DNA of 64,000 bases. Source: Dyella sp. 2HG41-7 (GTDB taxonomy: Bacteria > Pseudomonadota > Gammaproteobacteria > Xanthomonadales > Rhodanobacteraceae). Under the pieces are notes generated by a model. It saw nothing but the letters and a program-made list of their open reading frames with translations. It was not told the DNA's origin and made no database searches. The stretch is taken from assembly GCF_021390675.1 (NCBI RefSeq), contig NZ_JAJEJV010000004.1, positions 2,480,001-2,544,000 of the forward strand. Reading direction: 5' to 3'. Positions 1,967 through 58,172 of this stretch are shown piece after piece. A program made the translations under genes and the position numbers. Numbering within the stretch: the first letter of the stretch is position 1; each line of letters starts with the position of its first letter.

Positions 1967-2080
1967 AGAGGTAAGCAAGGCCGGAGCGCGTGCGATGAAC
2001 GCCAGTCGGAAATGTCGGCTGCAAGGCCCCATTCGGTTGACGTCTCGAGTATGGCTATGATGATACGTAACGGGAACGCC

Positions 2081-3351: not shown

Positions 3352-3457
3352 GGTTTACCGGATACCCGCCGCCCGCGGCCGATAACTTTGCATGGCGAAA
3401 GCAAGCGCGTATGGCATTCGCGTCAGCGTGTCGATGACTTCCTAACTCGCTCGCCAC

Positions 3458-3486
3458 TGCATCCAATCGTTCGGCTCATGCGTATA
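3458..3486 (+). promoter_or_regulatory. Candidate ECF promoter of the lipid-modification operon
   Basis: A second copy of TGCATCCAATC followed after 12 bases by CGTA, identical in spacing to the copy at 1938. Transcription would start about 20 to 25 bases before the desaturase ATG at 3515. The intervening bases are unrelated to those of the other copy, so this is a conserved signal rather than a duplicated segment. Confidence 0.65.
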
Positions 3487-3514
3487 TACCGTATAAGAGC
3501 GATGGATATGCCTA

Positions 3515-4504: not shown

Positions 4505-4507
4505 ACC

Positions 4508-20384: not shown

Positions 20385-21302
20385 ATGAACAATCGTGCGA
20401 CGACACTTATCGACCTTGACTGGGACACTTTCGATCCATCGCGCATCCAAGGCGTGCGCCACCGTTTGTCCGATCATCCGTTGTTGCAGCCCGATCAACT
20501 TGTAGCGCTGGGCAAGCGCTTCCAGGGCAGCACGCGGCTATTTACGTTCAACAACGAAGCCGGCGCCGATGCGAACTTCGACGACGTCGGTCGTCTGTAT
20601 CCCAATCGCAAATCCGCGGCCGATACGGTGCAAGGTATCAACGACGCCAAGGCGTGGATGCTGCTGCGTCATGTGCAAGACGACCCCACCTACCGCAGCT
20701 TGGTGGATATGGCGATGAGCCCGATCCAACCGTTGATCGAGCGCAAGGATCCCGGCATGCATTACCGCGCGGGATGGATTTTCGTGGCGTCGCCGCACAC
20801 CACCACGCCGTTTCATATCGACCGTAATCACGGCATCTTGCTGCAGATTCGCGGCACCAAAAAAGTGTACGTCTGGGACGCCGAAGACATCGAGGTATGC
20901 AGCGAGCACGCGCGCGATGTGTTCCATGCCCGTCACGATCTCAGCCTGGTGAAGTGGAACGAAGCCTTCCGCGAACGCGCGCACGTATTCACCGTTGGCC
21001 CTGGTATGGGCGTCTATATGCCCATCACCAGCCCGCATATGGTCGAAACGGGCGACGAGCCTTCCATCACCATCAGCTTCACGTACAGCACGGCGGCGAC
21101 GCGACGGAATGCCATGCGTCATGTCGTCAACGACCTGCTTTATCGCAAAGGCATCCGGCCGACGCCGGTGGGCAAGCATCAACTCGTCGACACGCTGACC
21201 TATGCCACCGCGTCCGTCATGGTCGCGGCGCATGGTGTCGGCAGCCGACCTCCCGCCTGTCCATCGCTGGCGCATCCAAGCGCCTATGCGGTGGCCGATT
21301 AA
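20385..21302 (+). CDS. Cupin-8/JmjC-like oxygenase
   Basis: A 305-residue protein of the JmjC-like cupin superfamily. The double-stranded beta-helix is visible in the middle: MHYRAGWIFVASPHTTTPFHID supplies the HxD pair of iron ligands (FHID), GILLQIRGTKKVYVWD the strand with a 2-oxoglutarate-binding region, and MPITSPHMVETGDEPSITIS the distal histidine. Family members are Fe(II)/2-oxoglutarate hydroxylases, several of which act on amino acids bound to NRPS carrier proteins. It is 36 bases upstream of the first megasynthase gene, so hydroxylation of an amino acid or polyketide unit is the likely job (inference). No signal peptide. Confidence 0.82.
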   Translation: MNNRATTLIDLDWDTFDPSRIQGVRHRLSDHPLLQPDQLVALGKRFQGSTRLFTFNNEAGADANFDDVGRLYPNRKSAADTVQGINDAKAWMLLRHVQDDPTYRSLVDMAMSPIQPLIERKDPGMHYRAGWIFVASPHTTTPFHIDRNHGILLQIRGTKKVYVWDAEDIEVCSEHARDVFHARHDLSLVKWNEAFRERAHVFTVGPGMGVYMPITSPHMVETGDEPSITISFTYSTAATRRNAMRHVVNDLLYRKGIRPTPVGKHQLVDTLTYATASVMVAAHGVGSRPPACPSLAHPSAYAVAD

Positions 21303-21338: not shown

Positions 21339-24300
21339 ATGAATGCCAGTGTCGCCAAGCCCCAGGACGGAATGGCTGAAGGCAGCACGCTTTTCGACGT
21401 ACTGCCATCCCAAACCGACATCAGCGCAAACGGCTGGACGCGCCGTGAGTACGCGCTCGAAGGATCGATGATTGCAGCATTGCGCGACACCTCGCAGCGA
21501 TGCGGAAGTAACGAATCCACCCTCTTTTGCGCAGCGTTGGCGCTCACCGAATCGCGACTCACCGGTGCGCAGAATGTCGTAGTCAGTTGTGTCGATGCGA
21601 ACGGATCGAAGCAGCTGTCGATCGATCTATCGCGTGATGGAAGCCGCGACGCATGGCTGCAAGTGTTCTGCATCTCGCTAGACCATGCAGCGCCCATCGC
21701 ATGCCGCACCGCCTGGGCCATTGGCAATGACATTTATTCGCGCGATGTCGAGCATGAGGGCGACACATCGGCCAGCAGCTCCTGGAACATACAAGCTACC
21801 GCTGCGCGCATCGAAGTAACCTTCCGCGCGCCACTCAATGCCGCTGCGATCGACTTGCTCCATGCCGGCGTGATGCGCGCCTTGGCCTGGTTATGCGCGC
21901 CAAGCGATAGCGACTTGTCGTCCTTCGACGTGTGCGATCCCGACGAACGCCATCGCATGTTGGTCGAATGGAATGCCACTGCCGTAACGCGCCGCGAGGC
22001 CGATTCGGTCCACGACCTTTTTGCAGCGCAAGCTCTTCAGCATCCGCATTCGTTGGCGATCGAATCGCCTACGCTCCATCTGTCCTACGCCGAACTCGAT
22101 GCGCGCGCCAATCGCGTGGCGGCAGGCTTGATCGCCGCCGGCGTCAATGTCGGCGCACCGGTCGCCCTATTGCTCGAACGCTCACCGGAAGCGCTGATCG
22201 CCGTACTTGGCATCCTCAAAGCCGGCGCCGCCTATCTGCCGCTCGATCCGAGTTATCCGGCGGAGCGTCTCGCCTTTGTGATCAACGACGCGCGTGCCGC
22301 ACTGATCATTGCCGGCGCGCAATCACCGGCGATTCCCGGTGTCGAATTACCCGTTGTGCAGCTTGAGCAATTGCAAGGCGATGCGACGACGACCGGCCTT
22401 CCTACCGTCGACGGTAGCGCGCTCGCCTATGTGATGTACACGTCCGGCTCGACCGGCACGCCCAAAGGCGTTGAGATCACGCATCGATCCATCATTCGCT
22501 TGGTGCGCGATGTCACGTATGTGGACCTGAGCGGTGAGCCCTGCGTACTGCATGCCGCCCCGCTCGGTTTCGATGCGTCCACGCTGGAAATTTGGGGAGC
22601 CTTGCTCAACGGCGGCGCGTGCATCGTGCACGACGAAAAAATTCCTACCGGTGCCGGGCTGAAAAACACCATCGAGAGCCGCGGCGCCCGCATCGCCTGG
22701 CTGACGGCGGCGCTGTTCAACGCCATCGTCGACGAAGACGCGCAGAACTTACGCGGTCTCAAGCAGCTTCTGATCGGGGGCGAAGCCTTATCGGTCGCGC
22801 ATGTGCACAAAGCCTACGCCGCATTGCCCGATATCACCATTATCAACGGCTACGGCCCGACCGAGTGCACGACCTTCGCTGCGACGTATCGCATTCCACG
22901 CGACCTCGACGCGCACGATCGGTCGGTGCCGATTGGCGCACCGATTGCCGACACCACGCTGTACGTGTTGAACGGCTACCGCGAACCGGTGCCGGTCGGC
23001 GTCATCGGCGAGTTGTTTATCGGCGGCGGCGGCCTGGCGCGCGGTTATTTGGCGCGCGTTGAATTGACGGCCGAGCGATTCGTAGCGCATCCCTTCGGCG
23101 CCGCTGGTGAGCGTCTATATCGCACCGGCGATCTCGTACGCTGGTTGTCGACGGGTGTAATCGAATTCGTCGGCAGAGCCGATGGCCAGATCAAGATTCG
23201 CGGCTACCGGATCGAAATCGGTGAAATCGAAGCGGCTCTGCAACGCTTGCCTGGCGTGCGCGCATGCGCGGTGCTGGCGCGCGAAGATCGGCCAGGGCAA
23301 AAGCAGCTGGTAGCGTATTACGTTGCCGAGGATGCATCGATCAACGCGCGCGCCTTGCGCGATCAGTTGACGCATGCCTTACCGGAATTCATGGTGCCAG
23401 CCATCTTTATCGCGATGGAGTCGCTACCCGTAACGGCAAACGGAAAACTCGACCGTCGCGCCCTGCCCGCACCGGACAACGATCGTCCAGAGCTGGCCGG
23501 CGTCTATGTTCCGGCGGCGGGGAAAACCGAACAACGCCTCTGCGAAGTGTTCGCCGACTTGCTCGGTCTGGATCGCGTCGGTCGCAACGATCATTTCTTC
23601 GAGCTTGGCGGCAACTCGCTGCTGGCCGTGCGCACGGTAACGCGCATTCATACCGAGCTGGCAACGAAAATACCGACGATCGCAGCGTTCTTTGGCACGC
23701 CGACGCCCGTCGCGCTCGCCGCGATGATCGATCAAGGCGACGCGCGCGCCGCACTCGCATCGCGCCTTTCCCATCACCGCTCACCGACCGATGCCGAACC
23801 CGTCGCCATCATCGCGATGGCCGGACGCTTCCCCGGCGCGAACGATGTCGAGACGTTCTGGGACAACCTCTGCGCCGGCCGCGAGTCGATCACCTTTTTC
23901 GGCGCGGACCAACTCGACCCGAGCATCCCGACCGAACAACGCAAAGACCCGGCGTACGTCGCGGCGCGTGGCGTGATCGACGGCGTGGAAAATTTCGATG
24001 CAGCTTTTTTCGGCATTTCACCGCGCGAAGCGGAGCTGATGGACCCGCAGCAACGGATCTTCCTCGAGCTGTGCTGGGAATGCCTAGAGCGCGGCGGTTA
24101 TACGCCGGATGAGCAAAAAGTGCCCGTAGGCGTCTTCGGCGGCATGCATAACGCCACCTATTTCCAGCGCCATATCAGCATGCGCCCCGACTTGGTCGAC
24201 AAGTTTGGTGCGTTCCAGGTGATGCTGGCCAACGAAAAGGATTACCTCGCCACACGCATCGCTCACAAACTCAATCTGACCGGCCCGGCAATCAGCATGA

Positions 24301-27300
24301 ATACCGCATGCTCGACGTCGCTGGTCGCGATTTGCCAAGCGTTCGATGCGTTGCGCGCCGGTCACTGCGATATGGCGCTTGCCGGCGGCTCGTCGATTTC
24401 GTGTCCGCCGCGCAGCGGCTATCTCTCGCAAGAAGGCTCGATGCTGTCGCCCGATGGGCACACCCGCAGTTTCGATGCGGATGCGCGCGGCACGGTGTTC
24501 AGCGACGGCGCCGCAGTCGTGCTGTTGAAACGCCTCTCGGATGCCTTGCGCGACGGTGATCCGATCTACGCCGTGATTCGTGGCGGCGCCGTCAATAACG
24601 ATGGCGGCGCCAAGGCGAGCTTCACCGCGCCCAGCAGCGCGGGGCAAGCCGCCGTGATCACCATGGCGCTGGAAAACGCTGGCGTGCAGGCCAATTCGAT
24701 TTCCTACGTGGAAACGCACGGCACCGCGACACCCCTGGGCGATCCCATCGAAATCGAAGGATTGGCGCAGGTCTTTCGTCAAAGCACGAACGAGCGCGGC
24801 GTTTGCGCAATCGGTTCGGTGAAAAGCAATGTCGGCCATCTCGTGATGGCGGCCGGCGCAACCGGCGTGATCAAGACGGCGCTGTCCTTGGCCGAACGCC
24901 GACTGCCACCGTCGCTGCATTTCCGCGCCAACAACCCGAAGCTCGATCTCGCCAACTCGCCGTTCTTCGTCAACGACTCGGTGCGTGCATGGCGTTTCGA
25001 CGGCGGCCCGCTGCGCGCCGGCGTAAGTTCGTTTGGCGTGGGCGGCACGAACGCGCATGTCGTGCTCGAAGAACCGCCGCAACGCGAACCTTCCGATGCC
25101 GCCGAAGGCCCGCAGCTGTTGTTGCTATCCGCGCGTACCGATGCGGCGCTCGGCCATGCGGTAGAGCAACTGGGCGCACACCTCTCAACGCAACCAGATG
25201 CTCAGTTGGCCGATGTTGCCTGGACCCTGTGCAAGGGTCGCAAGGTGTTTGCGCATCGCGTCTACGTCGTCGCAGAAAGCACCGAAGACGCTGCGAAGCG
25301 ACTGCAGGAGCTGGCCGTATCAGCCTCTGGAAAAACCGCCCTCAATCCTGCACCGGGCGTGGTCTTTATGTTCCCCGGCCAGGGATCTCAATACGCCGGC
25401 ATGGGGCGCGCGTTATACGAATCGGAACCCGCATTCGGCGAAGCGCTTGACGAATGCACAGAGATCCTTCGCGAGGAACTCGGGTTCGACTTGCGCGAAC
25501 GATTGTTTGCGGACGACGCCGACGCGCTGCGTGCAACCGCGCTGACGCAGCCAGCCATCTTTGCCATCGAATATTCGCTCGCGCGCTTGTGGATGAGCTA
25601 CGGCGTGAAGCCCGTCGCCATGATCGGCCACAGCGTAGGCGAGTTCGTCGCGGCCGTGATCGCCGGTGTGATGGATCTTGCCGACGGCGCACGCCTGATC
25701 GCCCGCCGCGGACGCCTGATGCAGGCGCTGCCGGCCGGATCGATGTTGTCCGTGCGCATGGACGCGACGCAACTGGCGAGTCGCCTGCCGGCCACCTTGT
25801 CGCTCGCCGCCGAAAACGCGCCGAACGCGTGCGTTGTCTCGGGCGAAACACCGCTAGTTCAGGCGTTTCAGACGGAACTCGAACAAGCCGGCGTTGCGTG
25901 CCGGCTGCTGCACACGTCGCACGCGTTCCACTCATCGATGATGGACCCAGCGCTGCCGTCGTTCCGTCAGGAAGTAGAACATATCGCATTGTCGGCGCCG
26001 CGCATCCCGATCGCCTCTACGTTGACGGGTAACATGCTTAGCAACGACGAAGCGACATCGCCGGCTTATTGGACACGGCATCTGCGCGGCACCGTACGTT
26101 TTTCGATGGCGCTGCAAACGCTGCTTGCCGAACCGCAACACGCGTTCCTCGAAGTAGGCCCGCGCACCACGCTCAGTCTGTTGGCGCGCCAACACACACA
26201 AAGCCGTGGCCGCGTGGTGCTCGCCTCGCTGGCCGACAGCCCATCGAACGAACGCGCCACATGGCTCGATGCGGTTGGCCAGAGTTGGTCGCAGGGCGTC
26301 GATGTTGCGGTTGATCGATTGGATCGCCGTCAACGCAAATTCCGCGTGCGCCTGCCGACGTATCCGTTCGAGCGCAAGCGCCACTGGATCGACGCACCAC
26401 CGGCCTCCGACGCATTGCCGACGGCAACCGTATCGAACGTCGTCACGCTTCCCGTGCGCACCGAACCTGCCGTAGCGGCCGCCACACCTATCAACCTTAT
26501 TCCGGAGGCCACCATGGCCCCTGCTCCGACCTCTACGTCCTCGCGCGCCACGCGCCTGATCGCTCAACTCAGCGCGCTCTTCGAAGACGTCGCCGGCACC
26601 GAATTCGAAGGTGTGGACCCGGCCACGCATTTCGTCGAACTCGGTCTCGATTCGCTGTCGCTGACGCAAGTAGCGCTGCAGCTGCAGAAGACCTTCGCGC
26701 TGAAGATCACGTTCCGCGAACTGATGGAATCGCATTCCTCGTTCGGCAGCCTGGCCCAGCATATCGACCGGCTACTGCCGCCCGAAACCGAAGCCGTCGT
26801 CGCAGCGGCCGAATCGACCGTCGTCGCCGCACCCGCGGCACCTGTCGTTACGACAAATCAGGTATCTGCTATGTCCATACCAGCCAATGGCGGATTGATA
26901 CAGGACGTGATCCAGCAGCAAATGCTGATCATGCAGCAGCAGTTGGCGTTGCTCGCGAGCGCGGGCAACGCGGCGCCGGCAGCCGCGCCCGCTGTCGTTG
27001 CACCAGCAGTAGCCGCGCCACCCGCACCAACACCCGTCGCGACTGCGCCGATGCCGCCACTCGCCGCGCAACCGGCTACCGACACACCGCCCGATGAAGA
27101 AGCGGCGCTCGCGCACACGACGTACGACGTCAAAAAAGCGTTCGGCGCGATTGCACGCATTCACTCAGGCTCGACCGAACTGACGGGTCGGCAGCGCGTT
27201 CGCCTCGACGCTTTCATGCGCCGATACATCGAGCGCACGCGGAAATCGAAAGCCTATACCGAAGAAAATCGGGCACATCTGGCCGATCCGCGCGTCGTCA

Positions 27301-28667
27301 ACGGATTCCGTCCGCTGCTGAAAGAAATCATCTATCAAATCGTCGTCGAACGCTCCAAGGGCTCAAAGGTATGGGACCTGGACGGCAACGAATACGTCGA
27401 CGCGCTAAACGGCTTCGGCATGAATTTGTTCGGCTGGCAACCCGATTTCGTGCTCGACGCTGTACGCAAACAACTCGATACCGGTTACGAAATCGGACCA
27501 CAACATCCGCTGGCCGGCGTCGTCGCCAAACAAATCTGCGACATCACCGGATTCGATCGTGCCGCGCTATGCAACACCGGATCGGAAGCGGTGATGGGTA
27601 CAGTTCGCGTGGCGCGTACGGTTACCGGTCGCGACACGTTGGTGATTTTTACCGGCTCGTACCACGGCATTTTCGATGAAGTGATCGTGCGCGGCACGAA
27701 GAAATTGCGCTCGGTGCCGGCTGCGCCGGGAATTTTGCGCAACACGTCCGAGCATGTGCTTGTGCTCGACTACGGCACACCCGAATCGCTCGCCATCATC
27801 CGCGAGCGCGCCTCGTCGATTGCCGCCGTGCTGGTCGAACCCGTGCAAAGCCGTCGCCCCGATTTCCAGCCGCGCGAGTTCCTACAGGAACTGCGCGCGA
27901 TTACCGCCGATGCGGGCGCGTTATTGATCTTCGATGAAGTGGTCACCGGTTTCCGCTCGCATCCGCGTGGTGCGCAAGCGGTGCTCGGCATCGATGCCGA
28001 TCTGGCCTCGTACGGCAAGGTCGTCGGCGGCGGTTTCCCGATTGGTGTGATCGCGGGCAAACGCAAATTTATGGATGCGCTCGACGGCGGTGGCTGGCAA
28101 TTCGGCGACGCGTCGATTCCGACGGTCGGCGTTACGTATTTCGCCGGCACGTTTGTGCGCCATCCGCTTGCGCTCGCCGCCGCGCACGCGGTGCTCGATC
28201 ATCTCAAGACGTCGGGCGCCGCCCTGCAGGAGCGCCTCAATGCGCGCACGACCTCGCTAGCCAAAGAATTGAATACCTTCTGCGGCGATGTAGGCGCACC
28301 GATCAAGGTGACGCACTTTGCGTCCGTGTGGAAGACGAATTTCCTCGAAGATCATCCGCTGCAGGATTTGTTGTTCGCGATGATGCGCAGCCGTGGCATT
28401 CATATTCTCGACAACTTCCCGTGCTTCTTTACCACTGCGCATGGCGAAGAAGATTTTGTGGCGATCGCCAAGGCTTTCAAGGAATCCGTACTCGAATTGC
28501 AGGAAGCCGAGTTCTTGCCCCGTCGCGTCAAGACCGAAGCGCGTCCGCTCGATGCCGCCAACCCGCCTGTCGCCGGCGCACGCCTGGGCAAGGACGAGGA
28601 AGGCAAACCGACGTGGTTCGTGCCCAATCCCGATGTTCCGGGCAAGTACATGAAATTGAGCGCTTGA
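21339..28667 (+). CDS. Hybrid NRPS/PKS megasynthase (A-PCP-KS-AT-ACP-aminotransferase)
   Basis: A 2442-residue megasynthase. Residues 1-210 resemble the second half of a condensation domain, without HHxxxDG. The adenylation domain has TSGSTGTPKG (about 367), NGYGPTE and NGK with the catalytic Lys703. My reading of its pocket is D-A-L-W-I-G-G-T-F-K, one change from a known valine code. The first carrier has GGNS with Ser760. The ketosynthase (822-1240) keeps Cys991, His1127 and His1167. The acyltransferase has GHSVGE (Ser1432) and HAFH (1528), predicting malonyl-CoA. The ACP serine is Ser1772. An Ala/Pro linker with IQQQMLIMQQQLALL precedes a GSA-type PLP aminotransferase (Lys2227 in SYGKVVGGG). 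It should extend an aminoacyl starter once and aminate the beta carbon. Confidence 0.95.
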   Translation: MNASVAKPQDGMAEGSTLFDVLPSQTDISANGWTRREYALEGSMIAALRDTSQRCGSNESTLFCAALALTESRLTGAQNVVVSCVDANGSKQLSIDLSRDGSRDAWLQVFCISLDHAAPIACRTAWAIGNDIYSRDVEHEGDTSASSSWNIQATAARIEVTFRAPLNAAAIDLLHAGVMRALAWLCAPSDSDLSSFDVCDPDERHRMLVEWNATAVTRREADSVHDLFAAQALQHPHSLAIESPTLHLSYAELDARANRVAAGLIAAGVNVGAPVALLLERSPEALIAVLGILKAGAAYLPLDPSYPAERLAFVINDARAALIIAGAQSPAIPGVELPVVQLEQLQGDATTTGLPTVDGSALAYVMYTSGSTGTPKGVEITHRSIIRLVRDVTYVDLSGEPCVLHAAPLGFDASTLEIWGALLNGGACIVHDEKIPTGAGLKNTIESRGARIAWLTAALFNAIVDEDAQNLRGLKQLLIGGEALSVAHVHKAYAALPDITIINGYGPTECTTFAATYRIPRDLDAHDRSVPIGAPIADTTLYVLNGYREPVPVGVIGELFIGGGGLARGYLARVELTAERFVAHPFGAAGERLYRTGDLVRWLSTGVIEFVGRADGQIKIRGYRIEIGEIEAALQRLPGVRACAVLAREDRPGQKQLVAYYVAEDASINARALRDQLTHALPEFMVPAIFIAMESLPVTANGKLDRRALPAPDNDRPELAGVYVPAAGKTEQRLCEVFADLLGLDRVGRNDHFFELGGNSLLAVRTVTRIHTELATKIPTIAAFFGTPTPVALAAMIDQGDARAALASRLSHHRSPTDAEPVAIIAMAGRFPGANDVETFWDNLCAGRESITFFGADQLDPSIPTEQRKDPAYVAARGVIDGVENFDAAFFGISPREAELMDPQQRIFLELCWECLERGGYTPDEQKVPVGVFGGMHNATYFQRHISMRPDLVDKFGAFQVMLANEKDYLATRIAHKLNLTGPAISMNTACSTSLVAICQAFDALRAGHCDMALAGGSSISCPPRSGYLSQEGSMLSPDGHTRSFDADARGTVFSDGAAVVLLKRLSDALRDGDPIYAVIRGGAVNNDGGAKASFTAPSSAGQAAVITMALENAGVQANSISYVETHGTATPLGDPIEIEGLAQVFRQSTNERGVCAIGSVKSNVGHLVMAAGATGVIKTALSLAERRLPPSLHFRANNPKLDLANSPFFVNDSVRAWRFDGGPLRAGVSSFGVGGTNAHVVLEEPPQREPSDAAEGPQLLLLSARTDAALGHAVEQLGAHLSTQPDAQLADVAWTLCKGRKVFAHRVYVVAESTEDAAKRLQELAVSASGKTALNPAPGVVFMFPGQGSQYAGMGRALYESEPAFGEALDECTEILREELGFDLRERLFADDADALRATALTQPAIFAIEYSLARLWMSYGVKPVAMIGHSVGEFVAAVIAGVMDLADGARLIARRGRLMQALPAGSMLSVRMDATQLASRLPATLSLAAENAPNACVVSGETPLVQAFQTELEQAGVACRLLHTSHAFHSSMMDPALPSFRQEVEHIALSAPRIPIASTLTGNMLSNDEATSPAYWTRHLRGTVRFSMALQTLLAEPQHAFLEVGPRTTLSLLARQHTQSRGRVVLASLADSPSNERATWLDAVGQSWSQGVDVAVDRLDRRQRKFRVRLPTYPFERKRHWIDAPPASDALPTATVSNVVTLPVRTEPAVAAATPINLIPEATMAPAPTSTSSRATRLIAQLSALFEDVAGTEFEGVDPATHFVELGLDSLSLTQVALQLQKTFALKITFRELMESHSSFGSLAQHIDRLLPPETEAVVAAAESTVVAAPAAPVVTTNQVSAMSIPANGGLIQDVIQQQMLIMQQQLALLASAGNAAPAAAPAVVAPAVAAPPAPTPVATAPMPPLAAQPATDTPPDEEAALAHTTYDVKKAFGAIARIHSGSTELTGRQRVRLDAFMRRYIERTRKSKAYTEENRAHLADPRVVNGFRPLLKEIIYQIVVERSKGSKVWDLDGNEYVDALNGFGMNLFGWQPDFVLDAVRKQLDTGYEIGPQHPLAGVVAKQICDITGFDRAALCNTGSEAVMGTVRVARTVTGRDTLVIFTGSYHGIFDEVIVRGTKKLRSVPAAPGILRNTSEHVLVLDYGTPESLAIIRERASSIAAVLVEPVQSRRPDFQPREFLQELRAITADAGALLIFDEVVTGFRSHPRGAQAVLGIDADLASYGKVVGGGFPIGVIAGKRKFMDALDGGGWQFGDASIPTVGVTYFAGTFVRHPLALAAAHAVLDHLKTSGAALQERLNARTTSLAKELNTFCGDVGAPIKVTHFASVWKTNFLEDHPLQDLLFAMMRSRGIHILDNFPCFFTTAHGEEDFVAIAKAFKESVLELQEAEFLPRRVKTEARPLDAANPPVAGARLGKDEEGKPTWFVPNPDVPGKYMKLSA

Positions 28668-28677
28668 GGATCAAGCC

Positions 28678-31600
28678 ATGAATGCCAATGACGTCAACGT
28701 GGTCACTACGGCCGTCGACTACGATCCGTTCGCCGACGCCGCACTCGCGCGCGTCGTGCCCGCAACGGCATCACAACGCGAGATTTGGCTGGCCGCGAAA
28801 CTGGAGCAGGAAGCTTCGCTCGCCTATAACGAATCGGTGTCGATACGCTTCACCGGCGAGCTCGATGTCGCCGCGTTGCAAGCGGCATTGCAAAGCGTCG
28901 TCGATCGGCATGAAGCGCTGCGCGCCACGCTCAGCGCGGACGGCAACGAGCTTTGCATCGCCACCCATGTGGAGTTGGACTACGTCGTACACGATTTGTC
29001 CAGTCTGGATGAAACCGATCGTAGCGAGAAAATTTCCGCAGCGCTGGCGTCGGCCGTCGGCACGCCGTTCGATCTGGAACACGGCCCGTTGGTGCGCGCC
29101 CATTTGCTAAGGTTATCGGCGCAAGATCATTTGTTGATTTTTACCGCGCACCACATCGTTTGCGATGGCTGGTCCTTCGGCGTGATCGTGAACGATCTTG
29201 CCGCGCTGTACGCGCAGAGCCTGGGTCAAGGCGACGGCCCTGCGCCGGCGAATGCGTTTACGGACTACGCCATCGCCGAAACGACACGCGCACAAACCGA
29301 TAGCGGTCACGACGACGAACAATACTGGTTGAACCGATTCTGCGGCGCATTGCCGTCGCTGGATCTTCCCACCGACAACCCACGCCGTCGTCATCGCACA
29401 TTCGCCTCGCAACGCGAAGATCGCACGCTGGACGCGACCCTCGTCGCAGATATCAAGCGCCTTGGCGCACAACGCGGCGCGAGCTTCTATGCAACGCTCT
29501 TGACCGCCTTCAGCACGCTGCTGCATCGATTGACTGGCCAGGACGACGTCGTAGTCGGCATTCCAAGCGCTGGACAAGCGGTCGATGGACAAACCAATCT
29601 TGTCGGTCACTGTGTAAATGTGTTGCCATTGCGCACGGAAATAGATGCGCAAGCATCGTTTGCCAAGTTGCTTGGCCATGTGCGCAGCGACTTGCTGGAT
29701 GCATTCGAGCATCGGCAATACACGCTCGGCAGCCTGCTTGCGCGCTTGGCGATGCCGCGCGATCCAAGCCGGCTTCCGCTGGTCAGCGTACTCTTCAACC
29801 TCGATCAGGCGCTGGACGAGCGTACGGTCGCCTTTCCCGGCCTACGCTTCGAATTCTCCGGCAATGCACGCGTCTTCGAGAATTTCGAGCTGTTCGTCAA
29901 TGCCGTGCAAGTCGACGGCGGCCTGCGCTTGGAGTGTCAATACAACAGCGATTTGTTCCATGGTGAAACGGTACGCTGCTGGCTCGACGCATACGAAACC
30001 TTGTTACGAAGCGCCGTCGCGACACCCGACATGGCGGTACAGGAACTGGGACTTCTTTCGAACGCCGCACAGCGCGAAATCGCATCGCTGCAACCCGAAA
30101 GTACGCCGTATCCGGAGCAAAAGCTCGCACACGAATATTTCGAAAAACAAGTCGACCGCGTTCCGAACAACGCCTCAGTACGAAGCGGCGCGACGCGACT
30201 GAGCTACGCCGAACTGGAGGCGCGCGCCAATCGGCTCGCTCACGTGCTGCGCGAACGCGGCGTCGGCCGCGGCAACTTGGTGGGCATCGCGCTGTCGCGC
30301 AGCGCGGATATGGTGGCTGCGGTACTAGCCGTACACAAATCGGGCGCTGGCTACGTACCGCTCGATCCGCAATTTCCAGCCGACCGATTGGCCTTTATGG
30401 CCGATGATGCCGCCTTGGCCGCGTTGATCGTCGATGACGCCGTACCGGCCGCTTTCGATTTTCCCGCATCGCGCGTTCTGTCGTTGAAAGGCGATGCCGC
30501 CGCCATCGACTCAGCGTCACCCGCGCGTTTTGCGCGCGACGATGCAGCGGCAACGCCCGAATCCGTGGCCTACGTGATATTCACATCCGGCTCGACGGGC
30601 CGCCCCAAGGGGGTGCGTGTTCCTCATCGCACTACATCGAATTTTCTGACCAGCATGCGACGCGTTCCAGGCATCGCCGAAGACGACCGGCTGGTCGCCG
30701 TGACGACGCTTTCGTTCGATATCGCGTTTATGGAAGTGATGTTGCCGCTAAGCGCCGGCGCCGAAATCGTCATCGCCGATCGCGACGATGTTCGCGACGG
30801 CGCCGCCTTGCGCAAGCTGGTGGAGCAAAGCGACGCCACCATGATGCAGGCCACGCCTTCGGGCTGGCGCATTCTGATCGAGGCGGGCTGGAATGGTCGC
30901 GAACGCTTTCGCGCGGTATCCGGCGGCGAACCGTTGGCGGTCGATCTCGCCGAAGCGCTTATGCAGCGCTGCTCCGAAGTGTGGAACGGATACGGCCCCA
31001 CCGAAACCACCGTTTATTCGACCTATTGGCGCGTTGCGAATCCGCGCTCCGGTATTTTTATCGGTCGGCCGATCGCCAATACGCAGATTCATATATTGGA
31101 CGAGCAGCGTGCGCCCTGCCCGCTCGGCGTGCCTGGCGAAATCTATATTGGCGGCGCAGGCGTCACGCTGGGCTATTTGAATCGGCCGGAGCTCGATACC
31201 GAACGCTTCCTGCCCGATCCTTTCTCGGCGCGTAGCGATGCACGCATGTATCGCACCGGCGATCGCGGCCGTTGGCTGGCCAACGGCATGATCGAGCATC
31301 TGGGGCGGCTGGATTTCCAGGTGAAAGTGCGCGGCTATCGCATCGAATTGGGCGAAATCGAATGCGTGCTTGTCGACGTGCCCGACGTCGACCGCGCCGT
31401 TGTGATGGCGCGTGAAGATCGCCCGGGCGATGTCCGACTCGTTGCCTATGTGGTGATGCACGAAGGCGCCGGTTTCGACGAAACGAAACTACGCGATCAG
31501 CTCAAGCAGCGACTACCAGACTACATGGTGCCGCAGCACATTATTCAGCTCAGTGCGATCCCTTTGCTGCCAAATGGCAAGACCGATCGCAAGGAACTGC

Positions 31601-34600
31601 CGGCCCCGCAAATCCATTCGGTTGCGGCGGACACCGCACGCATCGCGCCACGCAACGACGACGAGCGTCGCGTGGCGGCGGCCATGGAAGGCATATTATC
31701 GTTGCCGGACCTCGACGTACGCGACGACTTCTTCGCACTCGGCGGCCACTCGTTGTTAGCCGCGCAACTCACCGCGCGCCTGAATCGCGAATTCGGCATC
31801 ACGTTGTCGTTCCGCACCTTGTTCGATGCGCCCACGATCGCAGCGCTTGCCGCCGCGATCCAGACACAGAAAGCCAGCGGCGCAGCGCCCGCAGCGCAAC
31901 CCATAGCGCAGCGGGCTGATCAAAGTCGCGCACCGCTGTCCTTGATGCAGAGCCGCTTGTGGTCGCTGGAAGAACTGCAACCGGGCCGCGTCACGTACAA
32001 CGCACCTTCCGCGCATCGGTTGCGCGGGCCGCTCGACGCGGCGGCGTTCCATCTGGCGTTGCAGGCGTTGATCCAGCGTCAACCGATCTTGCGCACGGCG
32101 TTCCGCCGCGAAGGCAATACGGTCGAACAGATCGTCACCCCGTATATCGAGGTGCCGCTGTTCCCCGCCGAAGATCTTTCTGGCTTACCGGAAAACGAAC
32201 GCGAATCCGCGCTGATGCAGCGCCTTCAAACACTCACCGATACGCCGTTCGATCTCACCCAGGCGCCGCTTTTCAGCGCACGCATGTTCCGCATGGGCGA
32301 GGACGACCACGTCTTTTTCTTTATGCCCCATCACATCATCTGGGATGGGTGGTCGTTCGATATTCTTTACGCCGAACTGTCGTCGCTCTATCGCGCCTTC
32401 GTCGATGGCGCGCCATCGCCCTTGGCGCCGCTGCCTGTCACGTACGGCGATTTCGCGGCGTGGCATACGCAATGGCTGGAAGGCCCGCAGTTTCAGACGC
32501 AGCTCGCGTTTTGGCGCGAGCGCCTCGCGACGATGGCGAACATTCGCGCGTTGCCCACCGATCAGCCCAGGCGTCCGGGCATGTCCGGCATCGGTCGCAC
32601 CGAGTGGATCCGCGTGACCAAGGAAGCGACCGACGCGATGCACGACGTCGCACGCGCCGCCGACGCCACGCTCAATATGACGCTGCTGGCGCTGTATTAC
32701 GTGTTGCTCAGCGGCATGGCGAGTGAAAGCGATCTGGTGGTCGGCACGCCGGTGCGTGCGCGCAATCAGACCGAAGTCGAATCGGTGATGGGTTATTTCA
32801 ATAATCTTCTGCCATTGCATATCACCGTCGACACTACGCTTTCGTTTGTCGAATTCGTTCGTTACGTCAAACGTGCAGCTATCGAAAGCTTCGGCCATCC
32901 CGACGTGCCGCTCGAATATTTGCAACGCGAGTTGCGTGTGGGTGCGGGCAGCGGCGCGGTGCTTTATCAGGCGCTCTTTTCATTCCAGGATGCGCGTCAA
33001 CGCATCGTGGATTGGGGTGGCCTGGCGCACGAACAGATTTTGTTGTTCCAGAGCGGCGCCACGGAAGACCTGGGACTTTGGTTCCTGGAGAGCAACAAAG
33101 GCATGGTTGGCGGCGTCACGTATAACGCCGACATCTTGCAAGCCGAAACAGCGCGCCTGCTGCGCGACCGCTACCTCGCCATGATGGTGCGCGTCAGCGA
33201 AGATCCGCACCAACGCGTCGGTACGCTCACCGCGATCAGCCAGGCCGAATTGACGCAAGAGCAAACCTGGAACGCGACCTCGACGGCTATAACGTTGCCG
33301 AGCAACGTCACCGCCATGTTCGAGCAGCAAGCCGACCGCGCGCCCGAAAAGACCGCACTGACATTCGGCAGCTGGAGCACGCGTTACAACGAGATCGAGC
33401 AACAGGCCAATCGAATCGCGCATTGTTTGCGTGCGCGCGGCGCAAGCATAGGCACACCCATCGGCCTCGCTGCGGCACCGGGCGCCAATCGTTTGGCCGG
33501 CATGCTGGGAATACTCAAGACGGGCAGCGTATGCGTGTTGCTCGACCCCACCGATCCGGCGCCGCGCTTGAAGGAGATCATCGCCGACGCGCGAATCACC
33601 CTGCTGGTAGGCGACAGCGCACTGGAAAATCCGCTTCAATGGCCGCGTACGCAAGCATTGTGGTTCGATGCGGACACGGTCGAAATCATCGACGTCGGGA
33701 ACGACCGCCACACGGTGGAGATAAACGGCGACGACATCGCAATGGTCGTCTACGTACCCGACCACGAAGGTCGCCCCAGTGGTGCAGGGTTTACGCATCA
33801 CGCGATCGCCAATGCGCTACAGGGACTCCAGGACTCCATCGGCTTGTCAGCCGACGATCGCATCCTTGCGACAGCCTCGCCGGCCACGAGCGACGCGATC
33901 ATCGAAACGCTGCTACCGATAGCGCTGGGCGCCGAATTGATTCTCGCCAATCAACGCGAGTCGCGCGAAGGCGAAGCGCTGATCAAATTGACGCAAAACC
34001 ATCATGCGAGCGCGATGTTTGCGGCTCCCGATGCATGGCAATCCATGTTCTCCGCGTCATGGACAGGGCGCGAGGAAATGAAAGCCGTTTGTGTCGGCGG
34101 GCTGCCGACGCCCGAGCTGGCGCAAAAATTGGCCGAATGCAGCGCCGGCGTCTGGAGCGTATCGGGCGCTGCCGACAACTCGCTCGCCGCGTCTTGCGGT
34201 CGCATCGAACGGCCGGTGGAAAGCCTTCACAGCGGCCGTCCGCTCGGCAATACCGCCGTCTGGATTCTCGATAGTCAACAGCATCCCTGCCCCATCGGCG
34301 CCATCGGTGAAATTCATGTCGGCGGTGCATCGCTAAGCCAACCGTTCGGCGTGCGCGCCACGGCGCAAGACCATAGCGTCGCGACGGCATCGGGCGTTTC
34401 GACCGATAACCGTCTGCAACGCACGCATCGTCGCGGACGGTGGCTGGTGAGCGGCCATATCCAGGAAATGGGTCGCACCGATCGTCGCGAGCGTATTCAC
34501 GGTCGCGAGATCGACCTGGCGACCGTCGAAGCCGAACTGCTCAGTCAATTGGGCGTGATGCGCGCCGTCGCGGTAGCGCGGATGAACCAAGCTGGCAGCG

Positions 34601-35103
34601 CATACATCGACGCCTATGCCGTCGCCGCATCCGGACATGCGCTCGACGCCAATCACCTGATCGCCGCATTGGCTGCCGCATTGCCTGCTCACGAGGTGCC
34701 GCAGCGCCTGATGTTTCTCGATACCTTGCCGTTGTCGGCCAACGGTGACGTGGATATCGCTGCGTTGCCGCTGCCTGGCGAGTCATTGGACGATGGCGTC
34801 GAAGACATTGCGACGCAGCCGAAAACCGCCAACGAACAAATGCTGGCCGCCTTGTGGAAGGAATTGCTTGGCGTCGCGCGTGTTCGCACCAGCGACAATT
34901 TCTTCGACATCGGCGGTCATTCGTTGATGGCGGTGGATATGGCTGCACGCGTGCAACGCCAGACCGGCATGTCGCTGAACTTGCTGGATATCGCCAACGG
35001 CACCTTGGGCACGTTGGCGGCAGGATTGTCCGAGAGCGTGGTCGCGGAGACACCGCGCGCGAATATCGGCTCGCGTCTACGCAATTTGTTCGGGCGGCGC
35101 TGA
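28678..35103 (+). CDS. NRPS (C-A-PCP-C-A*-PCP), last A domain degenerate
   Basis: A 2141-residue two-module NRPS starting 10 bases after the first megasynthase. The first condensation domain has HHIVCDG (158-164); its adenylation domain has FTSGSTGRPKG (about 635), NGYGPTETT, YRTGD and Lys968 in NGKTDR; the carrier serine is Ser1025. The pocket residues read about D-I-M-Q-V-G-G-V-Y-K, which I cannot assign (faintly glycine-like). The second condensation domain is intact (HHIIWDG, 1218-1224). The following adenylation domain (about 1540-2040) has lost its motifs: the P-loop reads VYVPDHEGRPSG, the GYGPTE motif is gone and the catalytic lysine position is Asp2024. The final carrier keeps GGHS (Ser2082). 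No epimerase, reductase or thioesterase domain follows. Confidence 0.95.
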   Translation: MNANDVNVVTTAVDYDPFADAALARVVPATASQREIWLAAKLEQEASLAYNESVSIRFTGELDVAALQAALQSVVDRHEALRATLSADGNELCIATHVELDYVVHDLSSLDETDRSEKISAALASAVGTPFDLEHGPLVRAHLLRLSAQDHLLIFTAHHIVCDGWSFGVIVNDLAALYAQSLGQGDGPAPANAFTDYAIAETTRAQTDSGHDDEQYWLNRFCGALPSLDLPTDNPRRRHRTFASQREDRTLDATLVADIKRLGAQRGASFYATLLTAFSTLLHRLTGQDDVVVGIPSAGQAVDGQTNLVGHCVNVLPLRTEIDAQASFAKLLGHVRSDLLDAFEHRQYTLGSLLARLAMPRDPSRLPLVSVLFNLDQALDERTVAFPGLRFEFSGNARVFENFELFVNAVQVDGGLRLECQYNSDLFHGETVRCWLDAYETLLRSAVATPDMAVQELGLLSNAAQREIASLQPESTPYPEQKLAHEYFEKQVDRVPNNASVRSGATRLSYAELEARANRLAHVLRERGVGRGNLVGIALSRSADMVAAVLAVHKSGAGYVPLDPQFPADRLAFMADDAALAALIVDDAVPAAFDFPASRVLSLKGDAAAIDSASPARFARDDAAATPESVAYVIFTSGSTGRPKGVRVPHRTTSNFLTSMRRVPGIAEDDRLVAVTTLSFDIAFMEVMLPLSAGAEIVIADRDDVRDGAALRKLVEQSDATMMQATPSGWRILIEAGWNGRERFRAVSGGEPLAVDLAEALMQRCSEVWNGYGPTETTVYSTYWRVANPRSGIFIGRPIANTQIHILDEQRAPCPLGVPGEIYIGGAGVTLGYLNRPELDTERFLPDPFSARSDARMYRTGDRGRWLANGMIEHLGRLDFQVKVRGYRIELGEIECVLVDVPDVDRAVVMAREDRPGDVRLVAYVVMHEGAGFDETKLRDQLKQRLPDYMVPQHIIQLSAIPLLPNGKTDRKELPAPQIHSVAADTARIAPRNDDERRVAAAMEGILSLPDLDVRDDFFALGGHSLLAAQLTARLNREFGITLSFRTLFDAPTIAALAAAIQTQKASGAAPAAQPIAQRADQSRAPLSLMQSRLWSLEELQPGRVTYNAPSAHRLRGPLDAAAFHLALQALIQRQPILRTAFRREGNTVEQIVTPYIEVPLFPAEDLSGLPENERESALMQRLQTLTDTPFDLTQAPLFSARMFRMGEDDHVFFFMPHHIIWDGWSFDILYAELSSLYRAFVDGAPSPLAPLPVTYGDFAAWHTQWLEGPQFQTQLAFWRERLATMANIRALPTDQPRRPGMSGIGRTEWIRVTKEATDAMHDVARAADATLNMTLLALYYVLLSGMASESDLVVGTPVRARNQTEVESVMGYFNNLLPLHITVDTTLSFVEFVRYVKRAAIESFGHPDVPLEYLQRELRVGAGSGAVLYQALFSFQDARQRIVDWGGLAHEQILLFQSGATEDLGLWFLESNKGMVGGVTYNADILQAETARLLRDRYLAMMVRVSEDPHQRVGTLTAISQAELTQEQTWNATSTAITLPSNVTAMFEQQADRAPEKTALTFGSWSTRYNEIEQQANRIAHCLRARGASIGTPIGLAAAPGANRLAGMLGILKTGSVCVLLDPTDPAPRLKEIIADARITLLVGDSALENPLQWPRTQALWFDADTVEIIDVGNDRHTVEINGDDIAMVVYVPDHEGRPSGAGFTHHAIANALQGLQDSIGLSADDRILATASPATSDAIIETLLPIALGAELILANQRESREGEALIKLTQNHHASAMFAAPDAWQSMFSASWTGREEMKAVCVGGLPTPELAQKLAECSAGVWSVSGAADNSLAASCGRIERPVESLHSGRPLGNTAVWILDSQQHPCPIGAIGEIHVGGASLSQPFGVRATAQDHSVATASGVSTDNRLQRTHRRGRWLVSGHIQEMGRTDRRERIHGREIDLATVEAELLSQLGVMRAVAVARMNQAGSAYIDAYAVAASGHALDANHLIAALAAALPAHEVPQRLMFLDTLPLSANGDVDIAALPLPGESLDDGVEDIATQPKTANEQMLAALWKELLGVARVRTSDNFFDIGGHSLMAVDMAARVQRQTGMSLNLLDIANGTLGTLAAGLSESVVAETPRANIGSRLRNLFGRR

Positions 35104-35257: not shown

Positions 35258-36358
35258 ATGTTGACTCAGGAAGAAGGTCAAGGCAGAGCATCCGGTATCC
35301 GCGGACGCATGGCGGAGCTGTGCTACACCACTGGCGCGTTGCAACCCTTGCAGCGCGTGCGCTCGTGGCTGCAAAAAGATCTGCGCATTCTGGCGTATCA
35401 CCGCATTATGCCGCTTCCCGATTCGGCCAGTTTCGACTTCGATCTGGAATTGATCAGCACGACGCCCGAACGATTCCGTGCGCAAATGCTGCACGTCAAG
35501 CAACACTTCGTGCCGGTCCGCCTGAGCGACGTTGCCGCCGCCATAAACTCCGGCGCCGCACTTCCGCCCGATGCCGTGGCGATTACTTTCGACGATGGCT
35601 ACGACGACAACTACCGCATCGCCTACCCCATCCTGCGCGAACTGAACATTCCTGCGACGTTTTTCGTCTCGACCGGCCACATCGACACTGGCAAGCCATA
35701 CGGGTACGACTGGCTTGTACACATGATCCTGCTCACCAACGCGCCGCGCCTGGTGCTGCCGGAAATAGACATGGACGTGCCCATGCCGCGCGACCGCGAA
35801 CTGCGGCGTTCGCTTGCAGGCACCGTGCTGAAGAACATGAAAAGCATCGACGCCATGGCGCAGGAAGCAATGATCGGGCGACTGGAGCACGAATGGAACA
35901 TGCCGAGCAACGTTCGGCCTGACGATTGCCGTCCGATGACCTGGAACCAAGTGCGTGAAATGCACGCAGCAGGATTTGAAATCGGTTCGCACGGCGTCTA
36001 CCACCGCATGCTGGCAAAGTTACAGCACGATCTGATGGTGGACGAAATACGGCAATCCAAAGCGACGCTGGATCGCGAGCTCGACGCACCCGCCACCTTG
36101 ATGTCGTACCCGGTCGGTGGCGACCGCGCGTTCGACGATGCCGTGATGAACGCCACGCGCGACGCCGGCTTCGATTTGGCTGTCTGCTACATCTGCGGCA
36201 CCAATCCGCGGGCGGCGTCCCATCGTTACGCCCTTCGACGTCTCCCGGTCGAACGCATGATGAGTCCGGGCTGGTTCGCCGCCATGCTGACCTTGCCGAG
36301 CCTGGTGAGTTATCCGACCGCACATCACGAATCTCCGCGCGAGCAGGCCCACGTCTGA
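35258..36358 (+). CDS. Polysaccharide deacetylase family protein (NodB fold)
   Basis: A 366-residue carbohydrate esterase 4-like protein. Motifs in order: LRILAYHRIMP, VAITFDDGYDDNYRIAYPIL (the TFDDG metal and base motif), IPATFFVSTGHID, GFEIGSHGVYHRMLAKL (the HxxxH metal ligands as SHGVYH) and LMSYPVGG. It resembles the deacetylases linked to exosortase-type EPS clusters. It should remove N-acetyl groups from the polymer or its lipid-linked precursor. There is no clear signal peptide, so cytosolic action on a precursor is possible. GAGGA precedes ATG 35258. Its stop overlaps the O-antigen ligase start (TGATG), the first of a chain of coupled genes. Confidence 0.88.
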   Translation: MLTQEEGQGRASGIRGRMAELCYTTGALQPLQRVRSWLQKDLRILAYHRIMPLPDSASFDFDLELISTTPERFRAQMLHVKQHFVPVRLSDVAAAINSGAALPPDAVAITFDDGYDDNYRIAYPILRELNIPATFFVSTGHIDTGKPYGYDWLVHMILLTNAPRLVLPEIDMDVPMPRDRELRRSLAGTVLKNMKSIDAMAQEAMIGRLEHEWNMPSNVRPDDCRPMTWNQVREMHAAGFEIGSHGVYHRMLAKLQHDLMVDEIRQSKATLDRELDAPATLMSYPVGGDRAFDDAVMNATRDAGFDLAVCYICGTNPRAASHRYALRRLPVERMMSPGWFAAMLTLPSLVSYPTAHHESPREQAHV

Positions 36359-37623
36359 TGTTTCCGCTGATCATTCTCTATTTGATTTTGACCATCATCC
36401 GCCCGCAGGAATACATGGCGGCGTTTACCGGCATTCCGATATTGCCGGTGGTCCTGATCTCGGCGTTTCTGTGCTGGCTGATCTCTAGCGCCAAAACGTT
36501 CGCGGCGCCGCAGTTCGTGATACTCCCCGTGTTTCTGCTGATTTTAATGGTCTCGGTGGTCGTCAACGGCTGGTTCGGCGGTGCGCTGGATCAGCTGGAG
36601 AAGTTCGGTCCGATCATGATCGCGTTTTTCGTGCTAGCCGCGTCGTGCAATACGCAACGACGCGTCGTGATCACGATGGCTGTCTTCGTGTTGTGTTCGG
36701 TGGTCTTGGTCGCGCACGGCATTCAACAGGCCAGAGACGGCGTGGGCTGGACGGGCGTGCCCATTTCCGAAGACGGGCGCATCCAGTACGTCGGCATCTT
36801 CAACGACCCGAACGATCTGGGCCTTTTGTTCGCCAGTACGCTTCCCATGGCGGTCTATCTCAGCGGTTCGCGCGGATTTCTAATGCGCCTGTTTTGGTTG
36901 GCATGCGCGGCGATGCTGTTCTACGGAACGTATCTCACCAATTCGCGCGGCGCCCTGCTGGCCGTGCTTGTCGTGGCGGGCGTGTACGTTTGGTACAAGC
37001 GCGGTTTCGTCACCGCCGGTACGCTGGGCGTCGTCGGCCTCGCCTGCATGAAGCTGATGTCGTCGCGCATGCAGGAGCTGGACCCAGACGAAGAATCCGC
37101 ATTCGGCCGCGTGGATGCGTGGTATTCGGGTTTGCATATGTTTTTGTCGCACCCGGTATTCGGCGTCGGCGCCGGCAACTTCACCGAATACAACGACCTC
37201 ACCGCGCATAACTCCTTCGTGTTGGTGCTGGCCGAGACCGGTTTTGTCGGTTACATGCTGTGGCTGGCGTTTGTCGGCTACAGCTTCTGGATGATGCTGA
37301 CGGTCATTCGCTTCAAACCCGAGGGCCTCGAAGACCCTGCACGCGCCAAAGCCTGGCAGAGCGAGCAGCGCATGGCGCTGACATTACTGCTGTCGCTATG
37401 CGGCTTATTCGCGTCCGCCTTTTTCCTCAGCCGCAGCTATACGGTGGTGATGTATCTGATAGCCGCGATGGTGGTGGGCTATTACGTCAGCGCGCGGAAA
37501 CGCTTTCCTGGCCTGCGCCTGTTTACGGCCACCGATAGCCTTGGACGCTGGTTTACGGCATCAGTGGGCAGCATCGCCGGCTTTTTCGTTCTCGTCGCCA
37601 TTCTGCTGCATGTCTCCGCATGA
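36358..37623 (+). CDS. O-antigen ligase/polymerase family membrane protein
   Basis: A 421-residue polytopic membrane protein with about ten to twelve hydrophobic helices. The O-antigen ligase (Wzy/WaaL) region is seen in GIFNDPNDLGLLFASTLPMA, YLTNSRGALLAVL and the large periplasmic loop FGVGAGNFTEYNDLTAHNSF, whose AHNSFV motif is typical. It is close in form to the exosortase A-associated O-glycosylation ligase family (TIGR03097). It may polymerise the EPS repeat units or ligate glycan to an acceptor; no other Wzy candidate is in the window, so polymerisation is the simplest role. Confidence 0.87.
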   Translation: MFPLIILYLILTIIRPQEYMAAFTGIPILPVVLISAFLCWLISSAKTFAAPQFVILPVFLLILMVSVVVNGWFGGALDQLEKFGPIMIAFFVLAASCNTQRRVVITMAVFVLCSVVLVAHGIQQARDGVGWTGVPISEDGRIQYVGIFNDPNDLGLLFASTLPMAVYLSGSRGFLMRLFWLACAAMLFYGTYLTNSRGALLAVLVVAGVYVWYKRGFVTAGTLGVVGLACMKLMSSRMQELDPDEESAFGRVDAWYSGLHMFLSHPVFGVGAGNFTEYNDLTAHNSFVLVLAETGFVGYMLWLAFVGYSFWMMLTVIRFKPEGLEDPARAKAWQSEQRMALTLLLSLCGLFASAFFLSRSYTVVMYLIAAMVVGYYVSARKRFPGLRLFTATDSLGRWFTASVGSIAGFFVLVAILLHVSA

Positions 37624-37693
37624 ACAACTATCGCGCCGCTCCTCACCGTTTAGTCGCCGCTTCGCATCGATGGCGGCTCAGGAGGCATATCGT

Positions 37694-40158: not shown

Positions 40159-40166
40159 CAAAGGCA

Positions 40167-49325: not shown

Positions 49326-49376
49326 CGCTCCCGGTTCGAACCGCGCCGCGATGGCCATTGATCGCACTGTATCCAT

Positions 49377-54189: not shown

Positions 54190-54191
54190 AC

Positions 54192-58164: not shown

Positions 58165-58172
58165 GGGCGCGC

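Follow-up and report, generated by a model that had tools for sequence, protein, structure and literature searches.

An NRPS/PKS assembly line in an exopolysaccharide locus of Dyella sp. 2HG41-7 and a hydrolase pair as its putative off-loading unit

Two genes for a nonribosomal peptide synthetase/polyketide synthase (NRPS/PKS) assembly line, at 21339..28667 and 28678..35103 on the plus strand, sit inside a surface-polysaccharide (exopolysaccharide, EPS) locus in the 4.26-Mb genome of Dyella sp. 2HG41-7. The window, meaning the whole stretch analyzed, comprises 64,000 nucleotides (contig NZ_JAJEJV010000004.1, positions 2,480,001 to 2,544,000). With moderate confidence, we read these genes as an EPS-decorating cassette, the product of which would be off-loaded by a pair of hydrolase-like proteins, one a pseudo-hydrolase and the other a putative Cys acyltransferase. 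Four new points weigh most: some EPS loci that are otherwise complete lack both the pair and the assembly line; the pair takes the place of a terminal thioesterase; its members carry a Cys/Arg signature; and fusions of the pair occur. An earlier sequence-only reading had placed the two megasynthases, with a cupin-type oxygenase upstream, between EPS genes and had proposed that the peptide-polyketide is made as a substituent of, or is exported with, the polysaccharide. The arrangement proved to be real and conserved, with intact genes and strong Pfam domains, and its sense had been guessed well, although the reasons given were partly wrong.

The hydrolase pair, chain release and linkage to EPS genes

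Both members of the pair are encoded on the minus strand. Hydrolase 1 (50378..51274; the open reading frame (ORF) opens at 51583 and its start was trimmed) is an alpha/beta hydrolase with a Cys nucleophile in the motif GLCSG (C136) and a conserved His (H267), and is a putative acyltransferase. Hydrolase 2 (51202..51984) is a pseudo-hydrolase with an Arg (R119) in the nucleophile elbow, and is the putative receiver of the last carrier (T) domain. They score 78.9 against TIGR03100 (cut-off 168.45, E 3.7e-22) and 91.7 against TIGR03101 (cut-off 202.75, E 5.5e-26), respectively. Across 32 pairs, C136 and H267 are invariant (32/32 each), as are W140 and W238 of hydrolase 2, while the R119 position is occupied by Arg in 29/32, by Gly in 2 and by Gln in 1. 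Class-wide matches, mostly canonical, present the same signature, with Cys in 31/31 and Arg in 30/30, window included. In the structure models (pLDDT 85.0 for hydrolase 1 and 89.2 for hydrolase 2), C136 and R119 lie between the expected strand and helix. A fold search with both proteins returned general esterases and lipases and is uninformative on acyl transfer.

For the family-wide comparison, 117 genomes were drawn evenly from a larger group. The orthologous EPS core was marked by the conserved protein encoded at 43119..44324 (plus strand; no Pfam or PDB sequence match), which has counterparts of 59-89 per cent identity in 43 further genomes of the family and is thus matched in 44/117, own included. 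The megasynthase was scored as present when its ketosynthase-acyltransferase-T-aminotransferase (KS-AT-T-AMT) part was matched at E 1e-100, and a hydrolase 1-type match was defined as TIGR03100 at E 1e-10. Of the 44 core genomes, 40 have the megasynthase and all 40 have a hydrolase 1-type match, while the other 4, from two genera (G004, G026, G030 and G099), have neither. In the stretches read from these four, the epimerase and beta-barrel genes, between which the pair lies in the window, are neighbours and the hydrolase pair is missing. As four EPS-core genomes lack both, the presence of the hydrolases follows that of the assembly line, and the idea that they belong to the EPS core was rejected (40/40 with the megasynthase, 0/4 without). 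The sequence-only reading had regarded the hydrolases as kept from canonical loci; they are indeed present at 50378-51984, but track the assembly line and not the EPS core. In genus g5 (G059, G086 and G110), the pair comes directly after the NRPS, and across the 117 genomes a hydrolase 1 match and a megasynthase coincide in 49.

Release was compared among wider relatives from Xanthomonadales, Burkholderiales, Bacteroidetes, cyanobacteria, Planctomycetes and others, with 80 loci kept of 379. The release counts exclude truncated loci and loci without an NRPS ORF (13/81); the flank was examined for the pair up to 10 kb, and tails of 240 residues or more were considered long. Megasynthase 2 of the window has 31 residues beyond its last T and carries no terminal thioesterase. 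All tails (38/38) of the long-tailed relatives without a hydrolase 1 match in the flank, mostly Bacteroidetes, match the tail of L024, a thioesterase according to Pfam, at E 4e-19 or better; these are 37 loci plus L059, which has a reversed synthase order and a 279-residue thioesterase-like tail and was counted as thioesterase type. The pair is present in 11 short-tailed loci (window included) and in L025, which has an 89-residue tail. The sole long tail accompanied by the pair is that of L026, and this tail is itself hydrolase 2 (TIGR03101, E 3.3e-19), with no thioesterase match. Such NRPS-hydrolase 2 fusions, right behind the last T, are found in 4 loci, namely L026 and L157, L159 and L162 (genomes G355, G216 and G310, of which G355 and G216 share a genus). 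The lack of a release domain, together with the presence of the pair, fits a bound rather than a free product.

The two hydrolases are also fused to each other. Single-protein hydrolase 2-hydrolase 1 fusions, called where a single long ORF was matched by both profiles (and, in the case of L148, by NCBIfam as well), occur in L132, L148, L150, L154, L156 and L163-L166. An amino acid-[ACP] ligase (ACP, acyl carrier protein) over its cut-off lies near the pair in 3 loci (L156, L158 and L164). What the pair commonly works with thus seems to be a carrier bearing an aminoacyl or peptidyl group, and for this reason the pair is read as a putative transferase unit. A broader version of this idea, which we put forward tentatively, is that the pair, a Cys acyltransferase with an Arg-elbow pseudo-hydrolase, may serve as a general off-loader of aminoacyl or peptidyl groups from carrier to envelope polysaccharide in three kinds of locus, i.e., those with the small module of canonical XrtA systems, those with an amino acid-[ACP] ligase and those with an NRPS/PKS, and that here it would place Val-C2(beta-amino)-Gly-Gly on the EPS. 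As a separate observation, the loci around fused pairs and ligases contain an acyl-CoA dehydrogenase (near L158, L163 and L164) and DUF1839 (near L158 and L164), with no NRPS in the fetched stretch.

The link between megasynthase and EPS genes was assessed with TIGR03007 over cut-off as the EPS marker. In the 117 genomes, the megasynthase is found in 55 and the marker in 63; both are present in 51, the megasynthase alone in 4, the marker alone in 12 and neither in 50 (Fisher p 1.6e-16, phylogeny uncorrected, a value that overstates independence because the genomes are related). Part of the 55 megasynthase matches are fragmentary or distant (38-56 per cent identity); at 60 per cent identity or more, the marker is found in 40/41. 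Both genes lie on one contig in 43/51, 9-91 kb apart and on opposite strands, and on different contigs in 8. The same-contig pairs are convergent in 41 cases and divergent in 2 (G050 and G103, the most distant two, with 43 and 45 per cent identity). The family-wide co-occurrence that the sequence-only reading had suggested checking was thus borne out (marker in 51/55 megasynthase genomes). The case it had named as refuting was encountered, in that the megasynthase is absent from 12/63 TIGR03007 and 4/44 core genomes, yet decoration is not refuted by it: because EPS genes occur without the megasynthase, the latter is an optional add-on to the EPS locus. Among the wider relatives, an EPS marker is found in the flank of 22/29 thioesterase-less and 7/38 thioesterase-type loci (p 4e-6), so that most EPS-linked lines have no terminal thioesterase.

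The proposal that the NRPS/PKS stands in the place of the small carrier module did not hold. We take the canonical XrtA EPS module to consist of a TIGR03098 ligase, an ACP, a TIGR03099 decarboxylase and the TIGR03100/TIGR03101 hydrolases. The best TIGR03099 match of the Dyella genome scores 161.6 bits (cut-off 478.45), and this family exceeds its cut-off in only 4/117 genomes (G059, G073, G086 and G110, all of genus g5). As all four also have the megasynthase, replacement as a rule was rejected. In G059 and G086, the decarboxylase lies ~3-4 kb from the megasynthase, beside a single hydrolase pair; in G086, the decarboxylase is above cut-off, the ligase is best matched by TIGR03098 (below cut-off) and a carrier-protein-like ORF adjoins. 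The small module and the NRPS/PKS can, therefore, stand side by side. As to the exosortase-type character that had been ascribed to the locus, XrtA-type glycosylphosphotransferase, chain length and export proteins are present over cut-offs (TIGR03013, TIGR03007 and TIGR03027), while the exosortase family PF09721 has no match in the genome, so the term fits the export machinery alone; across the family, 16/117 genomes match it, 4 of them strongly.

Megasynthase domains and the predicted product

The two megasynthase ORFs are intact (2442 and 2141 aa) and separated by a 10-base gap. Megasynthase 1 presents the order N-A1-T-KS-AT-T-AMT, where A1 is the first adenylation (A) domain, with strong Pfam matches to AMP-binding, PP-binding (twice), ketoacyl-synt, Acyl_transf_1 and Aminotran_3; its N-terminal 200 residues have no Pfam match. 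The active-site motifs of A1, both T domains, KS and AT and the pyridoxal phosphate (PLP)-lysine region of the aminotransferase are present, and the AT motif HAFH is of the malonyl type. Megasynthase 2 reads C-A2-T-C-degenerate A3-T, with strong matches to Condensation (C), AMP-binding and PP-binding, each twice, and HHxxxDG in both C domains, which are the only Condensation domains found in the genome. The motifs of A3 that were tested are lost: the phosphate loop reads VVYVPDHEGRPSGAG, NGYGPTE reads SVSGAADNS, YRTGD reads QRTHRRG and NGK reads SANGDVDI.

A1 is an amino acid adenylation domain (TIGR01733, 426.8; cut-off 317.4), and loading by a fatty acyl ligase was not found. Specificity codes were read by alignment. 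The A1 code, DALWLGGTFK, is one that we take to be of valine type, and the corresponding code in Bacteroidetes relatives is commonly proline-type. The A2 code, DIMQVGGVYK, is near DILQLGMIWK and DILQIGAVWK, found at the same site in many relatives; codes of this type presumably denote glycine. Four relatives (L011, L012, L014 and L061) have an intact A3 whose code, DILQLGMVWK, is of the glycine type; in 11 loci, counting the window, A3 is degenerate, and in 11 others it is deleted, leaving C-T. L052, with a 153-residue A3 remnant, was counted as deleted, while L076 was scored unrecognisable, as the 478 residues lying between its C and T matched none of the A domain queries. The second C motif is nonetheless kept. 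A3 would be dispensable if both steps use glycine, because A2 could then load both T domains. The closest PDB match of the aminotransferase is mycosubtilin synthase MycA (6kfm, E 4e-121), and the beta-ketone is thus probably aminated.

From this order, the following course can be proposed. A1 would load valine, KS-AT would extend it by a malonate unit, the aminotransferase would convert the beta-ketone to an amine and A2 would add glycine. The second C domain would probably add a further glycine, with A2 charging the last T in place of the degenerate A3. The expected product, as predicted from the domains and codes, is 3,4-diamino-5-methylhexanoyl-Gly-Gly, i.e., a Val-derived beta,gamma-diamino acid followed by Gly and probably a second Gly. 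The peptidyl thioester on the last T may then pass to hydrolase 2, serving as a pseudo-hydrolase scaffold, and to hydrolase 1, the putative Cys acyltransferase, by which the peptide would be moved to an acceptor; the likeliest one is the lipid-linked EPS repeat, through an amino or hydroxyl group. Such transfer would precede flipping and export.

The tail of megasynthase 2 has a net charge of +5 over its last 15 residues. A C-terminal amphipathic helix serving as a membrane anchor was considered and rejected, as its hydrophobic moment did not stand out clearly from shuffles, either in the window (p 0.06) or in many relatives, and as thioesterase tails score equally high; the basic charge alone was retained.

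Competing explanations and related systems

Other explanations should be considered alongside the EPS-decorating cassette. The product might be a free secreted small molecule, with hydrolase 1 acting as a trans-acting thioesterase and the EPS genes being neighbours through co-regulation or shared export. We regard this as unlikely, albeit as a serious contender: relatives with a terminal thioesterase, most of them Bacteroidetes, probably set their product free, the window encodes a type II thioesterase and a phosphopantetheinyl transferase (PPTase) apart from the megasynthases at 57406-58961, and the EPS core can occur without the megasynthase. Against this stand the conserved linkage, convergent in nearly all same-contig pairs, and the fact that the hydrolase pair is common to canonical EPS loci; moreover, among the 40 window ORFs scanned, the EPS machinery was the only exporter recognised, and neither a receptor nor a resistance gene was seen. 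The peptide might instead be attached to a different part of the envelope (a membrane lipid, an outer-membrane protein or an undecaprenyl carrier used as an anchor) and not to the repeat unit. This appears clearly less probable still, since the genes to which the line is linked serve EPS assembly and export. The short, basic-ended tail of megasynthase 2 would nevertheless suit such a target, as would the fused pairs close to amino acid-[ACP] ligases, in fetched stretches that yielded no A domain. Finally, the degenerate A3, with core motifs lost in the window and 10 other loci, could mark a decaying assembly line that persists as a relic or passive hitch-hiker. As the remaining tested active-site motifs are intact, as A3 decay or deletion is common to many species with the C motif kept, and as the specificity predicted for A2 is close to that of the intact A3, we consider this highly improbable.

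The EPS-decorating cassette, which we nonetheless prefer, has points against it that should be kept in mind. EPS as the acceptor and the peptide-EPS bond are deduced from gene content, and we lean towards them with modest confidence; the Cys nucleophile of hydrolase 1 could also hydrolyse. Shared ancestry confounds the co-occurrence, and when Xanthomonadales are excluded, the EPS marker accompanies 6/13 thioesterase-less and 7/38 thioesterase loci (p 0.07). No EPS marker is found in the flank of 7/29 thioesterase-less loci, while thioesterase-type loci of Maribacter (L036, L049 and L059) have export, chain-length and flippase matches alongside, confirmed by Pfam in L036 (Poly_export, Wzz and Polysacc_synt). 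Eighteen loci were scored as short-tailed without the pair in the flank, of which L059 was misassigned, 5 have the pair farther on (G104, G080, G115, G035 and G011) and 12 were scored on the flank alone. In the family, 6 genomes have a megasynthase without a hydrolase match (E 1e-10) and 8 have a hydrolase match without a megasynthase; four of the latter (G042, G061, G083 and G111) contain fused pairs (L163-L166) around which no A domain was found. In addition, ligase and decarboxylase were found near the pair (within 20 kb) in only 3/6 canonical loci fetched.

Each of several known systems resembles the Dyella locus in part. With the canonical XrtA EPS locus it shares the initiating transferase, chain length and export proteins and the Cys/Arg signature of the hydrolases; it differs in having no exosortase match, no TIGR03099 over cut-off and a full NRPS/PKS, and its hydrolases score far below the family cut-offs. 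MycA of the mycosubtilin/iturin type has the order acyl ligase-ACP-KS-AT-ACP-aminotransferase. The KS-AT-T-aminotransferase order and the active-site motifs are the same in Dyella, although the Dyella line loads an amino acid and not a fatty acid, has no thioesterase and is part of an EPS locus. The Dlt system, with the membrane-bound O-acyltransferase (MBOAT) protein DltB, carries out D-alanylation of teichoic acids. There, too, an adenylation domain and a carrier supply an aminoacyl group for a surface polymer, and DltA is among the relatives of the A domains, whereas the Dyella line would make a multi-step peptide-polyketide and has the Cys hydrolase/pseudo-hydrolase pair in place of DltB. 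General scans of the 40 window ORFs gave no MBOAT match, and no search aimed at DltB or DltD was made. In the amino acid-[ACP] ligase loci, the pair also occurs, as a hydrolase 2-hydrolase 1 fusion close to an aminoacyl-carrier ligase, while these loci presumably handle a single amino acid, with an acyl-CoA dehydrogenase and DUF1839 and no NRPS in the fetched stretch. The thiopeptidoglycan sheath of Sphaerotilus/Leptothrix is a glycoconjugate; its name, which appears in the title of Kondo 2011, suggests a polysaccharide bearing peptide. In the open-licence literature searched, nothing was found on an EPS-linked NRPS.

If the preferred reading is true, a function would be given to two 'exosortase-associated hydrolases', named by context alone in NCBIfam, and a genetic route to polysaccharides bearing assembly-line peptides would become available. 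NRPS/PKS clusters of this kind may give nothing in supernatant screens, because the product would be bound.

Layout of the locus

The EPS genes upstream of the megasynthases are all on the plus strand and encode a UDP-sugar dehydrogenase for EPS precursor (12791..14068; PF03721/PF00984/PF03720), an NAD-dependent sugar epimerase (14090..15100; PF01370), a GMC-type oxidoreductase (15155..16834; PF05199) and the XrtA-type polyprenyl glycosylphosphotransferase for EPS unit initiation (17076..18476; TIGR03013, 563.8 bits, cut-off 393.35). A cupin/JmjC-like oxygenase, a probable tailoring enzyme (20385..21302, plus strand; PF13621 (Cupin_8), 34.2 bits, cut-off 27.4), ends 36 bases before megasynthase 1. 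The sequence-only reading had described one orientation with short gaps; the plus-strand run is, however, broken by a minus-strand gene for a DnaJ-like protein (18518..19213; PF00226 just under cut-off, position kept in relatives) in the 1.9-kb interval between glycosylphosphotransferase and cupin.

Behind the megasynthases, still on the plus strand, follow a polysaccharide deacetylase that could expose amino groups (35258..36358; PF01522; the ORF opens at 35150 and the start used is that of the sequence-only reading), a Wzy/O-antigen-ligase-type protein (36358..37623; PF04932), a PaaK-like adenylate-forming enzyme of the EPS core (37541..39052, with an ORF start that is too early; NF045666 and TIGR02155 below cut-offs), three family-4 glycosyltransferases (38581..43143; PF00534/PF13692), the conserved EPS-core protein and a family-2 glycosyltransferase (44337..45092; PF00535). 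The PaaK-like enzyme is also matched in 3/4 of the megasynthase-less core genomes (it was not seen in the G004 stretch), and perhaps provides an acyl donor of its own.

The minus-strand part begins with a flippase of the Polysacc_synt/MurJ type (46087..47763; PF01943). A 581-aa protein without Pfam match (47631-49376) has counterparts with 51-54 per cent identity in G059, G086 and G030. Beyond the hydrolase pair lie an outer-membrane beta-barrel of XrtA-type EPS loci (51981..53351; TIGR03016 below cut-off, PF10082 above), an XrtA-associated tyrosine autokinase (53410..54195; TIGR03018, 174.9 bits, below the cut-off of 230.65), the XrtA-type chain length determinant (54192..55736; TIGR03007, 382.4 bits, cut-off 278.85) and the XrtA-type polysaccharide export protein (55798..56421; TIGR03027, 205 bits, cut-off 180). 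The 4'-phosphopantetheinyl transferase (57406..58311; PF01648) and the free-standing type II thioesterase, probably an editing enzyme (58173..58961; PF00975), are on the same strand. These two were considered as a conserved end of the locus, and this was rejected, both being found only in L109 among 12 relatives followed beyond the export gene (L109-L120); in other relatives, the PPTase match adjoins the initiating transferase. A plasmid search returned no match. At the other end of the window, the run 1910-10277 contains a sigma-70-type factor, a ChrR-like cupin, a desaturase, a flavin amine oxidase, DUF1365, DUF2878 and two cyclopropane-synthase-like methyltransferases, and resembles a stress-induced cluster for modifying fatty acids.

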